Of a DNA stretch of 51,839 nt, positions 220 through 7,791 are shown in pieces (position 1 is the stretch's first letter; each line of letters starts with the position of its first letter). The position numbers were made by a program, and so were the translations under genes. This DNA comes from Bacteroides sp. (GTDB lineage Bacteria; Bacteroidota; Bacteroidia; Bacteroidales; Bacteroidaceae), in NCBI GenBank assembly GCA_017621035.1, contig JAGATY010000057.1, forward strand, positions 1 through 51,839, written 5' to 3'. Below the pieces are notes generated by a model. It searched no databases and was not told the origin of the DNA. It saw only the letters and a program-made list of their open reading frames with translations.

Positions 220-1404
220 TTATTCCTGTGATGTATCACTCACCGACCTATCTGCCAACCTTTGTGCAAGTAACCAGAAACCTTTACGCTCGCCACGAGT
301 GAGTTTGGCTATGTTACGTAGTAGAAGATATAGTCTTGACTTCTTCCGGATGGCTGCTTTTACAACCGGATAAAAGATGAATGTGACGAGGAGGCCGAGT
401 GCCAGCACCATATAGAGTTGTACATCTATCGACAATCCGTACATGAAGGCCAAGAACCAGCATAGTACTACAAAGAGGTTCATGCAGATGATGGACAAAG
501 TTGTGCCAATGTGAGAGTAGCCGAGCTCAATGAACAGGTGATGCAGGTGTGTCTTGTCGGGACTGAAAGGAGATTTACCTTTCAACAGTCTGGCACTCAT
601 TACACGTAGGGTGTCGAAAACCGGGATGCAAAGTACTGCTAATGTAAATGGTATGAGTCCCAGATTATCAGGTAGCTCAACCTCTATTTGTTCGGCTGAT
701 AGAATGGTGGTGACAAAAACAGAAAAGATGATTCCTAATGAAAGGGTACCGGCATCGCCAATAAACATTTTGGAGAGTTTACCAAATACATTATGTAAGA
801 AGAAGGGTAGCAATGATGCGGCTACAATGGCTGCCAGTGCCACCATACATATATTTCCCAGCGTGTAGAACATGGCGCCAAACAAGATGCAACTCACAAT
901 GCTATATCCTGAGGAGTATCCATCTACTCCATCAATCAGATTGACAGCATTGATAATACCTACACAGGCAAAAACCGTTAAAGGAATTGAGAACCAATTA
1001 TCTATCTGATGCACACCCCACAAACCGTGAAAATCGTTCAACTGATACCCGGTAGTGTATATCAAATAAATAACCAGTAAAATCTCTATCGCAAATCTTA
1101 CTTTGGCTGATAATGAAATCATATCGTCTATCAGCCCGATAATCAGGATGATGACAATGGAGGTGAATAAGGGAAAGAAATTATAAGGCTCCCCTATAAG
1201 ATTGAATGCCATCAGTCCGGACAGCACTCCGAATATGACGGTAAGCCCACCCAGAATGGGTACGGGAATACGCTGCAGCTTACGTGCATCCGGATTATCC
1301 ACGATGTTCTTTGTTTTGGCCACCTTTAGGATGTAGGGATGAATCCAGCAGGTGCAGAACAGAGCCATCAGAGCCGGAAGAAAAATTTGTAATAGTCCGT
1401 TCAT
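220..1404 (-). CDS. Undecaprenyl-phosphate N-acetylhexosamine-1-phosphate transferase, WecA/MraY family
   Basis: A 394-residue polytopic membrane protein with about ten or eleven hydrophobic helices. It shows the MraY/WecA/TagO superfamily motifs in order: DNPDARKLQRIPVPILGG near the N-terminus, the Asp pair in GLIDDMISLSAKVRF, NAVNLIDGVDG (Mg/nucleotide region), KMFIGDAGTLSLG, and the His-rich cytoplasmic loop DKTHLHHLF. Family members move a phospho-HexNAc from a UDP-sugar to undecaprenyl phosphate on the inner leaflet, starting a glycan repeat unit. It sits 16 bases after the second small capsule-head gene and shares orientation with upxY, so it most likely starts synthesis of the capsule encoded here. 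A C-terminal basic tail (KKSRLYLLLRNIAKLTRGER) is probably cytoplasmic. Whether the sugar is GlcNAc or another HexNAc cannot be read from sequence. Confidence 0.9.
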   Translation of the reverse strand: MNGLLQIFLPALMALFCTCWIHPYILKVAKTKNIVDNPDARKLQRIPVPILGGLTVIFGVLSGLMAFNLIGEPYNFFPLFTSIVIILIIGLIDDMISLSAKVRFAIEILLVIYLIYTTGYQLNDFHGLWGVHQIDNWFSIPLTVFACVGIINAVNLIDGVDGYSSGYSIVSCILFGAMFYTLGNICMVALAAIVAASLLPFFLHNVFGKLSKMFIGDAGTLSLGIIFSVFVTTILSAEQIEVELPDNLGLIPFTLAVLCIPVFDTLRVMSARLLKGKSPFSPDKTHLHHLFIELGYSHIGTTLSIICMNLFVVLCWFLAFMYGLSIDVQLYMVLALGLLVTFIFYPVVKAAIRKKSRLYLLLRNIAKLTRGERKGFWLLAQRLADRSVSDTSQE

Positions 1405-1420: not shown

Positions 1421-1768
1421 TTATTTCAAACTTTCAGTCCAATGTTGATAACCATCAGTATCTACTCCCAATGAGGCAGTCAGGTGATAGACCCCATTCC
1501 TGCATTCCATGAGCTTTGCATGCTCAGATGCTATCTTTCGGAAATCTGCATTTGTGATACATACATAAGGCATCTGCATTTTCTCTGAATAACCGGAAAG
1601 GGTGTGCAATCCGTCTGTTTGTGAAAGCAGATAGGCAGAGTTGCCATACGTCATCCACATACCGGTAAGTTCTTCTTGATAGAAATAGATACTATGCCCA
1701 TTGTTAAGAACCTCATTCAGTGTTATTAAGTCTCGGTTCATTGTTGCTACATTGTTAGTCATACTCAA
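1421..1768 (-). CDS. Small capsule-head protein of unknown function
   Basis: A 115-residue soluble protein with no signal peptide or membrane segment. Its start overlaps the end of the preceding gene by 14 bases, which suggests translational coupling. M1, M3 and M10 are all possible starts. I recognise no catalytic motif. The sequence is mixed alpha/beta with several aromatic residues (for example YFYQEELTGMWMTYGNSAYLL). Its place as third gene of the upxY operon, ahead of the initiating transferase, suggests a regulatory role in capsule expression or a second UpxZ-like factor. That is positional inference only. Confidence 0.75.
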   Translation of the reverse strand: MSMTNNVATMNRDLITLNEVLNNGHSIYFYQEELTGMWMTYGNSAYLLSQTDGLHTLSGYSEKMQMPYVCITNADFRKIASEHAKLMECRNGVYHLTASLGVDTDGYQHWTESLK

Positions 1769-2144
1769 TCATATGCTCTTTGTACCACTTGTCGTAAATA
1801 ACTTTATCGATAGGGCGTGTTACAAGCTGGAGATATTCCATCCCCTTCTTGGTCATGATGTGGTTGTGGCACATGTCGTTTACTCTTTTGTGATGGATGC
1901 TTTGCATAACAATAGGGAAAGGATGGTTCTTGATGTATAGCACCATGGCCTCGTGTTCATCTTTTGCCAACTTCTCAAGCTGATAGGCCGACTTCTCAAA
2001 GGCTACCCAATACTCCCCGACATCATAAAGATTGATGCAGTTATTATTGTGCTTCTCCTCATTAAGAATGTTCTTCATATTAGTAAGCAATAAAGTGTTG
2101 ATACGCTCTATTGTACTACTACCTGTTCCGGAAACTGTATTCAT
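1755..2144 (-). CDS. Small protein in the UpxZ position of the capsule operon
   Basis: A 129-residue soluble protein starting 3 bases after the upxY stop. In B. fragilis capsule loci the gene after upxY is upxZ, whose product antagonises UpxY proteins of other loci so that one capsule is favoured. Here the N-terminal half (IERINTLLLTNMKNILNEE) looks helical, as in UpxZ proteins. I cannot confirm family membership from memory because UpxZ sequences diverge strongly. There is no signal peptide, membrane segment or catalytic motif. Spacing and overlap with both neighbours make co-translation with upxY likely. Function is inferred from position. Confidence 0.75.
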   Translation of the reverse strand: MNTVSGTGSSTIERINTLLLTNMKNILNEEKHNNNCINLYDVGEYWVAFEKSAYQLEKLAKDEHEAMVLYIKNHPFPIVMQSIHHKRVNDMCHNHIMTKKGMEYLQLVTRPIDKVIYDKWYKEHMIEYD

Positions 2145-2147
2145 AAT

Positions 2148-2741
2148 TTATTTGTTTAAAGCTTGAATGTATCCATCTGAGATTTCGGCAATCATTACCG
2201 CCGCTATCCCCTGTACAAGCACCACTACACGTTTTTTGCGTTTGTGCTTAACTTTCATAAAAGTGCCCTCTATACCATCAAAAGAGCCGCCAATGATTTT
2301 TACAGGAGTACCTTTGTCCAGTTTAATTTCATCGGGAGTCATGTAGACCAAGTTTTCATTCAAGGTGTTACATACGGTTATAAACTGTTCCATCTGATAT
2401 TCGGGAACAATGATGGGCACGTTTCTCCCCTCGGCCGGCATTGTGAGATACTGAAGATAATCTATGCCTGACTTTAGGGATTGGATGTTTTCTTTAGTTG
2501 TATAGGCAAAGAGAAGATTTTGAATGGCCGGTATAAGTTTTCTGACTTTGCCTTGTTGCCGGTCATGAACCATTTCGTACTTCATCGGCACAAAACATTT
2601 TACACTTTTGCTTTCGAGAAAAGTTTTTGCTTTTATGGAGCGACCGAATGTTGCACTCATGGCAAACCACAAACATTCTTCCCCACCTCTACTTACCGGT
2701 TTCTCAGTAACTGACATATGAACTGATTGGGGATAGGACAT
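2148..2741 (-). CDS. UpxY-type capsule transcription antiterminator (NusG-like)
   Basis: A 197-residue NusG paralogue. The NGN domain covers about residues 24-125 (core WFAMSATFGRSIKAKTFLE, then KCFVPMKYE and NLLFAY). The C-terminal KOW domain is at about 140-195 (GTPVKIIGGSFDGIEGTFMKV). UpxY proteins travel with RNA polymerase that has loaded at the 5' leader of their own capsule operon and prevent premature termination. The ATG at 2741 is preceded on the minus strand by AGGGAG and AAAGGA purine tracts. It is the first gene after the invertible promoter and a leader hairpin, exactly the arrangement of Bacteroides phase-variable capsule loci. Expression should depend on the orientation of the segment at 2867-3080. 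Confidence 0.92.
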   Translation of the reverse strand: MSYPQSVHMSVTEKPVSRGGEECLWFAMSATFGRSIKAKTFLESKSVKCFVPMKYEMVHDRQQGKVRKLIPAIQNLLFAYTTKENIQSLKSGIDYLQYLTMPAEGRNVPIIVPEYQMEQFITVCNTLNENLVYMTPDEIKLDKGTPVKIIGGSFDGIEGTFMKVKHKRKKRVVVLVQGIAAVMIAEISDGYIQALNK

Positions 2742-2752
2742 TCCTTTGGCTC

Positions 2753-2785
2753 CCTGAAACCTTGCTATCTATGCTCTGTTTCAGG
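2753..2785 (-). promoter_or_regulatory. Leader hairpin just upstream of upxY
   Basis: On the minus strand CCTGAAAC and GTTTCAGG form a perfect 8-bp stem with a 17-nt loop, ending 11 bases before the upxY ATG. It lies in the transcribed leader expected when the invertible promoter is ON. UpxY antitermination in B. fragilis is known to require its own leader. Whether this hairpin is the recognition element or affects ribosome binding is inference. Confidence 0.5.
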
Positions 2786-2866
2786 CTTTTATGAATGCTT
2801 TGATTGTTGCATGTGATAATATGTAGCTTGTACATTTTAGCACTGTTCATCTTACGCTGAAATGCC

Positions 2867-2885
2867 AATCTTCTCAAAGAAGATT
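2867..2885 (+). repeat. Left inverted repeat of the invertible segment
   Basis: AATCTTCT-CAA-AGAAGATT. Each copy is itself an 8-bp palindrome around a 3-base asymmetric centre (CAA here, TTG in the partner), the architecture expected of a tyrosine-recombinase core site with two inverted binding arms. Confidence 0.8.
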
Positions 2886-3041
2886 GATTATCTACATTAG
2901 CTTCTGATAGACAGCCCTCTATGATTCATTACGATAAATATTCACCAAATAGAGTGTAAAAAATAAGCTCCCAAGGAAAATTATTTAACAGTGGAATGAA
3001 AAATATGAAACAAAAAAAGGTGCCGATTGAGATATTTTGAT

Positions 3042-3049
3042 TACTTTTG
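3042..3049 (+). promoter_or_regulatory. Capsule promoter -7 box, pointing away from upxY
   Basis: TACTTTTG matches the Bacteroidetes -7 consensus TANNTTTG. At the expected -33 distance the sequence is GGTG, only a partial match to TTTG. The box lies 13 bases inside the right inverted repeat, as in known invertible capsule promoters. In the present orientation it would transcribe toward the 3' end of the recombinase gene. Confidence 0.7.
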
Positions 3050-3061
3050 CATCGAAATATA

Positions 3062-3080
3062 CATCTTCTTTGAGAAGATT
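3062..3080 (-). repeat. Right inverted repeat of the invertible segment
   Basis: CATCTTCTTTGAGAAGATT is the reverse complement of the left copy except for the first base. The asymmetric centre is TTG, the complement of the left CAA, so recombination between the two copies inverts the DNA between them. Confidence 0.8.
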
Positions 3081-3115
3081 TGCACCCTCATAAAACTTTA
3101 TTCGCCCCTCCGGAG

Positions 3116-3142
3116 AATAAAAAAGGGAGCCCGTAGGCTCCT
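3116..3142 (-). terminator. Rho-independent terminator of the recombinase gene
   Basis: On the minus strand GGAGCC-TACG-GGCTCC is a 6-bp GC-rich stem with a 4-nt loop, followed directly by six T residues. It lies 16 bases after the recombinase stop and outside the invertible segment, so it isolates the recombinase transcript from the capsule operon. Confidence 0.85.
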
Positions 3143-3157
3143 AATTGCAATCAAATT

Positions 3158-4387
3158 TTATAACAATCTTAATATTTTACGGTTGGCACTATCTATCACT
3201 CCCTTCTCAAGTGAGGTAAGATAGATTTGAGTGGTTTTCTCAGAATCGTGTCCCATGCCTTCGCTGATGACCGATAGCGGTATGCCCTCATCGTGAGCAA
3301 TGCTTGCCCAGGAGTGTCGGGCACAGTACATCGTCAGCGGTTGATTCAGTCCTAATCTCCTACCTATCTCCTTAAGGTGTCGGTTGATTAAGTATGAGGC
3401 ATTCTGATACTCTTTCCTATGATTTATAGGGTCTTGGATAATGGAGAAGAGGTAGGGAGAGGAGTCCTTAGCGCGATATGTATTCAAGATTTCTTGCATG
3501 CAACTCTCCCAATGAATAGTCAGTGGTTGGTTGGTCTTTTTCCTGCGATAGAACAAAACACCTCCTTTCAGATTACCCTTTTGCAAATAGGCAATATCTA
3601 CAAAAGACATGCCACGGGTATAGAAACTAAACAAGAACATGTCTCTGGCAAACTTATCAGAATGATTGTGACTGAGGTTTAGTTCCTTTAATTGTCTTAT
3701 CACTTTCAAGGAGAGTGCCCGTTTGGATGTTTTCTCCATAGAGGTTGATACCCTCTTGAATGGTCGGCGGTCTATAATCAACTCATTCTCCACAGCTCGG
3801 TTATAAACAGCCCGCAGATGTTTTAGGTAGAATGATATGGTATTAGTAGACAGATTGTTATGTTTCAGAAAACTTGTGTACTCCTCCAGCATCTCTGAGT
3901 TGATATCTTCCAGCATCACGTCAATGTCTCTTCTAAATTTAGTGAAGCTGCTCAGGGTAGAAGCATACGTTTCACCGGTTCGGTACTGCCCGTGCAGGCG
4001 GTACTGTGCTATCATTCGTTCCATATATATAAATAAGGAGTGGTCAGACGACTGTTTACGATACTCGGTGATAACCTCGTCTATCACAAAGTTTCTTCCG
4101 GAGGCTATAAATTTCTTGACAATGCTCCTGAGACGGGTAACATCATATTGAATGCCTCTCTTGATGGATTCCAAGTATCTGATGCGGGAAGAGTGAGGGC
4201 AGATTGCAAGCCGGCGAGCCTTTGTGTTCCACTCTTCCGGTAGTATGCTATGAGGAGAGGCAATGTGCTGAATTACACTATTATAAATCACTTGGTAGAA
4301 GAGACGACCCTCTTTCCCCTCGATAGGAGAGGGGATAAACTTTAACTTTATAGATATCATGATAGAATTTGAGTTAGATAATGTCAT
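3158..4387 (-). CDS. Tyrosine recombinase (DNA invertase/integrase family)
   Basis: A 409-residue site-specific recombinase. The N-terminal arm and SAM-like core-binding domain cover about residues 1-215 (IAQYRLHGQYRTGETYASTL is in the SAM-like region). The catalytic domain follows, with the first Arg in FSFYTRGMSFVDIAYL, the beta-hairpin Lys in FYRRKKTNQPL, the second Arg in YCARHSWAS, the conserved His in GMGHDSEKTT, and the nucleophile Tyr in QIYL. The usual HxLRH motif reads YxARH, a variant I associate with Bacteroidetes recombinases. Such genes sit directly upstream of upxY in many Bacteroides capsule loci and flip the adjacent promoter. Here the likely substrate is the pair of 19-bp repeats at 2867 and 3062. 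M10 (ATG at 4360) is an alternative start. Confidence 0.92.
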   Translation of the reverse strand: MTLSNSNSIMISIKLKFIPSPIEGKEGRLFYQVIYNSVIQHIASPHSILPEEWNTKARRLAICPHSSRIRYLESIKRGIQYDVTRLRSIVKKFIASGRNFVIDEVITEYRKQSSDHSLFIYMERMIAQYRLHGQYRTGETYASTLSSFTKFRRDIDVMLEDINSEMLEEYTSFLKHNNLSTNTISFYLKHLRAVYNRAVENELIIDRRPFKRVSTSMEKTSKRALSLKVIRQLKELNLSHNHSDKFARDMFLFSFYTRGMSFVDIAYLQKGNLKGGVLFYRRKKTNQPLTIHWESCMQEILNTYRAKDSSPYLFSIIQDPINHRKEYQNASYLINRHLKEIGRRLGLNQPLTMYCARHSWASIAHDEGIPLSVISEGMGHDSEKTTQIYLTSLEKGVIDSANRKILRLL

Positions 4388-4506: not shown

Positions 4507-4517
4507 GATTCTAAAAG

Positions 4518-4591
4518 TGGACCAGCCTGGGCTTGAACCAGGGACCTCCAGATTATGAGTCTGTTGCTCTAACCAACTGAGCTACAAGTCC
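4518..4591 (-). tRNA. tRNA with CAT anticodon (tRNA-Met, elongator type; tRNA-Ile2 not excluded)
   Basis: The 74-nt cloverleaf on the minus strand begins GGACTTG, with D-arm AGCTCAGTTGGTTAGAGC. The anticodon loop is CTCATAA, the T-arm is CCTGG-TTCAAGC-CCAGG, and the 3' acceptor strand is CTGGTCC with discriminator A. CCA is not encoded. The acceptor stem has a T-T mismatch at pair 6-67 and a T-G at 5-68. Both elongator Met tRNA and lysidine-modified Ile2 tRNA use a CAT gene anticodon with a CTCATAA loop, so the amino acid is likely but not certainly Met. The presence of TTC/AAGC in the T-loop and lack of an initiator-type C1-A72 mismatch argue against initiator tRNA. Confidence 0.9.
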
Positions 4592-5133: not shown

Positions 5134-7791
5134 TTACTTCCCCTTCACAATGCGCTTGATGTCGTTCAGTTTGTTGAGAGCCTCCAGCGGGGTGAGGTTG
5201 TTGACGTCCAGGTTCAGTATCTCATCCCGTACTTGGCAGAGGATGGGGTCGTCCAGCTGGAAGAAACTGAGCTGCATGCCTCCTGCTTGCGAAGCACTCT
5301 CACTGATGTTCTTGCCACTGACACTGCCGGTTTGCCGATTCTCCTCCTCCAGCTGTTGCAGAATTTCGTCGGCACGTTTCACGATGCTTTTGGGCATGCC
5401 GGCCAGCTTGGCAACGTGGATACCGAAGGAGTGTTCACTACCTCCCCGTTCCAGTTTGCGCAGGAAGATGACCTTGCCGTCTACCTCTTTCACCGATACG
5501 TTGTAGTTTTTGATGCGTTTGAAGTTTTTCTCCATCTCGTTCAGCTCGTGATAATGGGTGGCAAACAGGGTGCGTGCCTTGGCTTTGGGATGCTCGTGGA
5601 TGTGTTCCACAATGGCCCAGGCGATGGAGATGCCGTCGTAGGTGGAAGTTCCGCGTCCCAGCTCGTCAAACAGTACCAGGCTGCGGGGCGACAGATTGTT
5701 CAGAATGTCGGCTGCCTCATTCATCTCTACCATGAAGGTAGATTCTCCCATCGAGATGTTGTCGCTGGCCCCCACGCGGGTGAAGATTTTGTCTACCAGC
5801 CCGATGTGTGCACTTTCGGCCGGAACAAAGCAGCCGATTTGTGCCAGCAGTGTGATGAGAGCCGTTTGTCGCAGCAGTGCCGATTTACCGGCCATGTTGG
5901 GTCCGGTAATGATGATGATTTGCTGTTGGTCGCTGTTCAGCAGCACATCATTGGCTACATAGTGCTCGCCGATGGGCAACTGCTTCTCGATGACCGGGTG
6001 ACGTCCCTGGTGAATCTCCAGCACATCGTCGTCGGCAATAATGGGGCGTATATAGTGATTCTCGCGGGCTGCGGTGGCAAAAGAGAGCAGGCAGTCCAGG
6101 CGGGCAATCTGGTTGGCATTGATTTGGATGGCGGGAATGAACTCGGCTAGCCAGAGTACTATCTCGTTATAGAGTTGCGTTTCCAGGGAGAGTATCTTAT
6201 CCTCGGCACCCAGTATCTTCTCCTCATACTCCTTCAGTTCCTGCGTAATGTAGCGTTCTGCGTTGGCCAGTGTCTGTTTGCGTATCCACTCCTGCGGTAC
6301 TTTATCCTTGTGAGTGTTGCGCACCTCTATGTAGTAGCCGAAGACATTGTTGTAGCCAATCTTCAAACTGGGGATGCCCGTCTCCTCACTCTCTCGTTGC
6401 TGTATCTGCAACAGATAGTCCTTGCCACTATAAGCAATCTGGCGAAGCTCGTCAAGCTCGGGGTTGAAACCGCTGCGGATGACGCCTCCTTTGTTGACCA
6501 GCAGGGGAGGGTCGTTGTTGATTTCCCGCTCGATGCGGTCGCGTACCGAGGGACAGAGGTTGAGTTGCTCGCCGATGCAGTTCAGGCTGGCGTTGTCTGC
6601 CTCCAGACAGGCCTGCTTGATGGGTTCGATGGCTTTCAGTGCCACCTTCAGTGCCACCACTTCGCGGGGAGAGACACGTCCTACGGCGGCCTTAGAGATG
6701 ATGCGTTCCAGGTCTCCTATCAGATGAAGTTGTTCCTCAATCAGCTCCTTGAAGTCGGGGTGGCGGAAGAAATACTCCACCACGTCCAGACGGTTGTTGA
6801 TGGGGCGCACCTCCTTCAGAGGGAATACCACCCAGCGTTTCAGCAGGCGGGCACCCATGGGTGAGATGGTGCGGTCTATGACATTCAGCAGTGAGGTGCC
6901 GCCATCATTCATAGAGCCTATCAGCTCCAGACTGCGTACGGTGAACTTGTCCAGCCGGACATACTTCTCCTCCTCAATGCGTGAGAGGGCGGTGATGTGC
7001 CCAATCTGTGTGTGTTGCGTCATTACCAGGTACTGGAGGATGGCGCCCGAGGCGATGATACCATTCTTCAGATGTTCCACACCGAAGCCTTTCAGATTCT
7101 TCACCTCGAAGTGCTTCAGCAGTTTTTCGCGGGCTGTGGTCTCGGTAAACACCCAGTCTTCCAGCTCGAAGGTGAAGAACTTGTTCCCGAAATTTCCCTC
7201 AAACATGCCCCGTTTGCCCCGTTCAAACAGTACCTCCTTGGGGGCAAAGTTGTTCAACAGCTTGTCCACATAGTCGAAAGAGCCTTCTGCCGTGAGGAAC
7301 TCGCCCGTGGAGATGTCCAGGAAGGCGATGCCACAGCTACCCTTGCCGAAGTGTACCGAGGCCAGGAAGTTGTTCTCCTTATAGTTCAGTATGTTGTCGT
7401 TGATGGAGACACCCGGTGTTACCAGCTCGGTGATGCCTCTCTTCACCAGCTTCTTAGTCAGCTTGGGGTCTTCCAGTTGGTCGCAGATGGCCACCCGCTT
7501 GCCTGCCCGCACCAGTTTGGGTAGGTAGGTGTCGAGTGCATGGTGTGGGAAGCCGGCCATTTCAATCTGCTGGCCGCCCTTGCCGTTGTTACGCTTGGTG
7601 AGGGTGATGCCCAGTATTTCTGCTGCGGCGATGGCATCGGTAGAGTAAGTTTCATAGAAGTCTCCGCAACGAAACAGCAGTACGGCATCAGGATGTTTGG
7701 CCTTCAGGTCGAGGAACTGTTTCATCATGGGGGTCAGGACAATTTCTTCGTCGCGCATATAGGGTGTCTTTATGAGGATTGATTGGGTCAC
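5134..7791 (-). CDS. mutS: DNA mismatch repair ATPase MutS
   Basis: At 885 residues this is a full-length MutS. The mismatch-reading domain I contains the Phe-x-Glu element in [16 protein letters not shown]. Connector, lever and clamp domains follow. The C-terminal ABC-type ATPase has Walker [14 protein letters not shown], the signature region [15 protein letters not shown] and Walker [17 protein letters not shown], with the switch His in [10 protein letters not shown]. It recognises mispairs and small loops and, as a dimer with MutL, starts repair. It is preceded by a consensus -7 box (7806-7813) and a GC-rich 22-bp repeat array, so it appears to be a single-gene unit separate from sufS upstream. 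The extreme C-terminus ([18 protein letters not shown]) matches the short tail common in this family. Confidence 0.98.

Follow-up and report, generated by a model that had tools for sequence, protein, structure and literature searches.

Phase variation of capsules in gut Bacteroidales shapes phage sensitivity and interaction with the host (PMC8375218, PMC12118408). In the Mpi regulon of Bacteroides fragilis, promoter inversion in front of upxY sets the capsule ON or OFF, as we propose for the locus described here; however, that regulon is served by one global serine invertase acting on a shared repeat, whereas our locus combines a tyrosine enzyme with a private site (PMC12632263, PMC8375218). 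The B. fragilis switch IVp-I/IVp-II resembles our proposal in that a tyrosine recombinase, Tsr19/BF2766, flips a polysaccharide-operon promoter. Tsr19/BF2766 also flips a distant promoter (PMC4747536), whereas a second site pair was not found in the assembly studied here.

It is described as frequent in gut Bacteroidaceae for a recombinase gene to lie upstream of an invertible promoter (PMC13114119), and UpxY genes near invertons have been depicted as open to regulation by a flip (PMC11892184). In B. thetaiotaomicron, B. xylanisolvens, and P. distasonis, invertible CPS promoters are accompanied by palindromic repeats and adjacent tyrosine invertase/integrase genes, and they precede an UpxY/NusG-type first gene of the CPS operon, as in our locus (PMC12118408). 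The repeats described there have GTTAC/GTAAC-type arms and recur at several loci per genome; in contrast, ours has TCTTCT/AGAAGA arms (ATCTT/AAGAT instead of GTTAC/GTAAC) and forms one pair in the assembly. The upxY switch of P. vulgatus has the same order of recombinase, inverted repeats with a promoter, upxY, and polysaccharide operon, but its adjacent recombinase is broken and its inversion was demonstrated by PCR (PMC13114119), whereas our recombinase frame is open and inversion is predicted from sequence. Invertible upxY promoters that have a linked recombinase and palindromic repeats have thus been published already, and our locus is a probable further case. Among the papers listed by a literature search with the letters of the repeat, none was relevant, the one candidate by title containing primers and an unrelated repeat. 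The arm sequence was not found in the article passages searched, and we do not claim that it is absent from print.

The window, that is, the whole stretch of 51,839 nucleotides analysed, corresponds to contig C86; the assembly comprises 93 contigs with 2,635,508 bases in total and is 91% complete. The tyrosine recombinase gene is followed, on the minus strand throughout, by a 416-bp intergenic region with the repeat pair and then by upxY:

220-1404, minus strand: glycosyltransferase of family 4 (WecA/MraY type; PF00953, 3.3e-30), in the same operon as upxY
1755-2144, minus strand: open reading frame of 129 aa where upxZ usually sits, without a family match
2148-2741, minus strand: upxY, transcription antiterminator and first gene of the capsule operon (NF033644, 2.2e-41, over the cut-off; PF02357)
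2753-2785, minus strand: leader hairpin of upxY with GAGCC after it, covarying among orthologs
2863-2884, plus strand: upxY-side repeat, with the core site ATCTTCT-CAA-AGAAGAT at 2868-2884
2885-3062, no strand: interior of the putative invertible segment; flipped interiors are known from relatives
3042-3049, plus strand: candidate promoter -7 box TACTTTTG, directed away from upxY (OFF), at a position conserved in relatives
3063-3084, minus strand: recombinase-side repeat, with the identical site in inverted orientation
3126-3141, minus strand: terminator-like hairpin 3' of the recombinase gene, with a T-rich tail towards 3116
3158-4387, minus strand: tyrosine recombinase P0001 of 409 aa, the likely invertase (PF00589, 1.4e-11; PF13102, 4.4e-20; motifs)

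The reading frames at 1755-2144 and 1421-1768 had no match to any Pfam family relevant to UpxZ. The recombinase gene is immediately preceded by a tRNA-Met gene (4517-4591, minus strand), and mutS lies on the far side of that tRNA gene. Elsewhere in the genome, a second UpxY-like reading frame (C78:101574-102038) scores 61 bits, below the family cut-off.

The first-pass annotation described 19-bp inverted repeats matching at 18 of 19 positions, each a palindrome around an asymmetric CAA centre. Our analysis confirmed both features and showed that the match continues outward to arms of 22 nt (21/22 matching, 95% complementary) with 178 nt between them, each copy containing the palindrome around its 3-bp centre. 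The repeat score of 19 in the intergenic region was reached by none of 1000 dinucleotide shuffles (largest 16) and, among 116 other tiles of 416 bp from the window, by one. The exact 18-mer site occurs in the assembly solely as this one pair, which supports the earlier suggestion of a locus-specific switch. The exact 15-mer core occurs once each in 11 other genomes of 158, and twice in our genome only. We rejected the idea of one site common to several loci of this genome, since the total of nine site matches, including seven with 2-3 mismatches (one of them the upxY-side site on the opposite strand), equals the nine obtained with a reversed-pattern control.

Between 2861 and 3090, the sole TANNTTTG box is TACTTTTG at 3042-3049, for which a clear -33 TTTG element was not found, and it faces away from upxY, as had been noticed before. 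No TANNTTTG box directed towards upxY was present between the recombinase gene and upxY; the assembled state contains no recognised box driving upxY. A terminator-like hairpin separates the recombinase gene from the segment (one found; mean of shuffles 0.2). These three observations bear out the OFF assignment made in the first pass, and the capsule of this bacterium is probably switched off in the assembled orientation, to judge from the sequence. Mirroring the box about the segment would place a transcription start near 2891, about 150 nt from the upxY start at 2741; this earlier prediction holds arithmetically. In B. intestinalis, RNA-seq places a start inside the proximal repeat, close to the geometry predicted here (PMC8375218).

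We compared the locus with 100 further stretches and with 56 loci from the genome collection, giving 157 loci including the window; they were clustered at 85% identity (118 clusters), since the two genome collections overlap in part, the contigs of L059 and L202 being equal in length. Within the genus, 83 of 149 genomes, our own included, contain relatives of P0001 at an E-value of 1e-60 or better. Many share the anatomy 3' of the recombinase gene, namely palindromic arms, a 3-bp centre, and an outward box inside one repeat. A repeat pair scoring at least 15 was found within 600 bp 3' of the recombinase in 66 of 91 usable loci, compared with 5 of 97 in the upstream control and 0 of 80 in a control placed further downstream, these numbers being drawn from 101 loci with short or masked flanks omitted. 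Of the 157 loci, 79 had a TCTCTT/AAGAGA or TCTTCT/AGAAGA site matching at 11 or more of 12 arm bases within 900 bp, and 78 had none, the latter weighing against the proposed switch. A box that faces outward and lies 10-20 nt in from a repeat was present in 83 of the 101 segments, against a mean of 1.6 and a maximum of 5 in shuffles; with a range of 10-26 nt, 17 loci were ON, 69 were OFF, and 15 lacked such a box. The distance was 12-17 nt for 82 of 87 boxes in the 101 of 157 loci used, with a possible error of a few bases because the automatically assigned centre was misplaced in part. Three recombinase relatives at 46-50% were found on viral contigs, where a paired site was absent.

Flipped segments were observed among relatives. 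Loci L122 and L123 have recombinases identical across the aligned 1194 nt and segments in opposite orientations; the segments of L136 and L137 are likewise flipped, with recombinases at 93%, and that of L182 is flipped relative to L180 between flanks about 96% identical. A plasmid common to Bacteroides and Parabacteroides strains carries a recombinase, two tandem segments, UpxY, and an MraY-family glycosyltransferase. Its distal segment, but not the proximal one, is flipped in 1 of the 18 records listing recombinase and distal segment (NZ_CP072238; 17 not), and its proximal segment has a single orientation in 17 of 17 records. In the plasmid record L217, the tandem segments (5363-5576 and 5736-5951) have different sites and precede a single upxY, and the boxes of both face away from it. 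Ten loci from several Bacteroidales genera (L178-L180, L182-L184, L187, L188, L195, and L210) are near-copies of one recombinase-plus-segment unit, as if this unit moved between genera; its box is OFF in nine and ON in L182. Both orientations are seen in relatives, and the window's locus is known in one. The shared anatomy and the near-identical relatives in opposite orientation support the original proposal of an invertible promoter.

The reading that we favour, with a probability of roughly 0.82, is a phase-variable capsule switch, OFF as assembled, in which some 200 bp of DNA, holding a single outward promoter between two palindromic sites, is likely flipped by the adjacent recombinase. The enzyme encoded at 3158-4387 would most likely use the 3-bp centre that both sites share to pair them and invert the segment. 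As assembled, the promoter would fire away from upxY, leaving the capsule operon OFF. Once the segment is flipped, transcripts would begin near 2891, traverse the leader hairpin, and yield UpxY, which would help RNA polymerase traverse the capsule operon.

The orthologous loci suggest how such sites and enzymes correspond. Six recombinases (L161, L164, L168-L171) are 64-72% identical to P0001, five of them over residues 109-409 or so only; the upxY genes that come after them share 57-67% identity with that of the window. The TCTTCT/AGAAGA arms occur at these six loci and at L162, L165, L166, and L194; the L165 recombinase is followed by an upxY only 25% identical to ours. An arm-matched site was absent within 900 bp in the clade members L163, L172, and L191 and in the near relative L042; this and the divergent upxY at L165 speak against such a correspondence. 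When 81 recombinases were placed on a tree, the 11 rows carrying TCTTCT/AGAAGA arms formed one side of one branch (SH-aLRT 100), with a single change of arm type (shuffled mean 10.4; 0 of 500 shuffles as low). In contrast to the arms, the centres vary within the clade: read from the recombinase side, they are CAA in the window and L171, TTG in L161 (the CAA site reversed), CGG in L164, L169, and L170, and otherwise TGT, ATG, TTT, TAT, or CGC.

Sites were sought by their arms alone, and the centres were read afterwards from this search rather than from the automatic centre. The two centres were reverse-complementary in all 43 two-site loci (42 of 42 by cluster), which were taken from the 45 loci where arm-matched sites numbered exactly two; the centres of the two loci dropped for wide spacing were also reverse-complementary. 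Between different loci, centres agree in 35 of 903 pairs. Tyrosine recombinases require identity between crossover regions, and the centre rule is expected from this requirement. The reverse-complementary centres favour inversion over deletion as the predicted outcome. A centre that serves as an exclusive address within a genome was unsupported, as 2 of 12 same-genome locus pairs, drawn from 56 hand-listed loci, share arms and centre. We lean towards a two-part address, in which the enzyme would read the clade-bound six-base arms and the 3-bp centre would drift but have to match between partners. The window's clade would then be a separate specificity class tied mostly to one orthologous upxY capsule locus.

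This arm-to-clade fit bears on which enzyme flips the segment. That the promoter inverts through another tyrosine recombinase of the genome is unlikely among the matches to P0001 at an E-value of 1e-60 or better, although inversion has been published for an upxY promoter whose adjacent recombinase is broken (PMC13114119) and one B. fragilis enzyme serves both a local and a distant promoter (PMC4747536). The only other such match in the genome (C21:175-1395, 48% identity) has a different site, TCTCTT-TAT-AAGAGA, just 3' of its own gene (C21:127-141), and arms track the clade of the adjacent recombinase. Contig C55 terminates exactly on a copy of this C21 site, as expected if the C21 segment were present in both states, and the assembly break suggests a switch of that kind. 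Action of P0001 on the window's sites is the likeliest reading, as an inference from the arm and clade fit, although the published inversion beside a broken gene speaks against it (PMC13114119).

A second alternative, a once functional switch that has become locked OFF in this strain, is improbable. It accords with the contig having been assembled through the segment without a break, from which one state may dominate, and with flipped copies coming from relatives only. However, the 17-bp core is still perfect at both sites, and the open frame of the recombinase encodes the motif-assigned residues R258, K283/K284, Y354xxR357, H380, and Y389. The His of the HxxR motif is replaced by Tyr (Y354) in P0001 and in all 108 of 157 loci that matched the search pattern, 49 being unmatched by it. 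Furthermore, orthologs occur in both states: among the 10 clade loci with a readable box beside the repeat, five are OFF (the window, L161, L162, L165, and L168) and five ON (L164, L166, L169, L170, and L171). These states were read by eye, since segment interiors align poorly with orthologs either way (best 32, L169 inverted); L171, which has overlapping boxes in both directions, was scored ON, and L162 was scored OFF from its recombinase-side site alone because the contig ends there.

The palindromes could instead be RNA hairpins or repressor sites, and the transcribed site does fold into a 7-bp stem with a 3-nt loop; we regard this as very unlikely, since it predicts neither the reverse-complementary centres in 43 of 43 loci nor the flipped segments of relatives. 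Control by an Mpi-type serine master invertase that flips the segment along with other capsule promoters, as in B. fragilis (PMC12632263), is rejected as extremely improbable, because the exact site forms a single pair, it is unlike the Mpi repeat ARACGTTCGTN as given in PMC8375218 (a difference that the first pass had noted), and a PF00239 search for serine resolvases gave 0 matches in the 91%-complete assembly versus matches in 10 of 14 control genomes.

A hairpin at 2785-2753 (minus strand) lies in the upxY leader, before GAGCC. In eight orthologous leaders, cut out after the hairpin had been noticed, 95.3% of hairpin cells pair (0 of 500 shuffles as high), both sides change in 4 of 8 pairs (11 of 500 shuffles), and the covariation score was reached by 0 of 500 shuffles. 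When the 157 loci were scanned for GGAGCC/GGACCC preceded by an 8-bp stem, six of the eight leaders were recovered, together with one other locus, L103, where the match lies outside the leader contexts checked. Rfam gave no family at the hairpin, its single match (E 4.7, far below the gathering score) being taken as chance. Saba and colleagues reportedly described UpxY pausing and hairpins in upxY leaders, and a role as an UpxY loading site is plausible for this hairpin.

The arm and centre pattern, together with the covarying upxY-leader hairpin, is the interesting part of our finding. Recombinase-promoter assignments are usually made from proximity, and the relatives show how sites and enzymes stay matched. 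If true, a rule by which the arms depend on the enzyme and the centres agree only between the partners of a pair would help to assign enzymes to switches.
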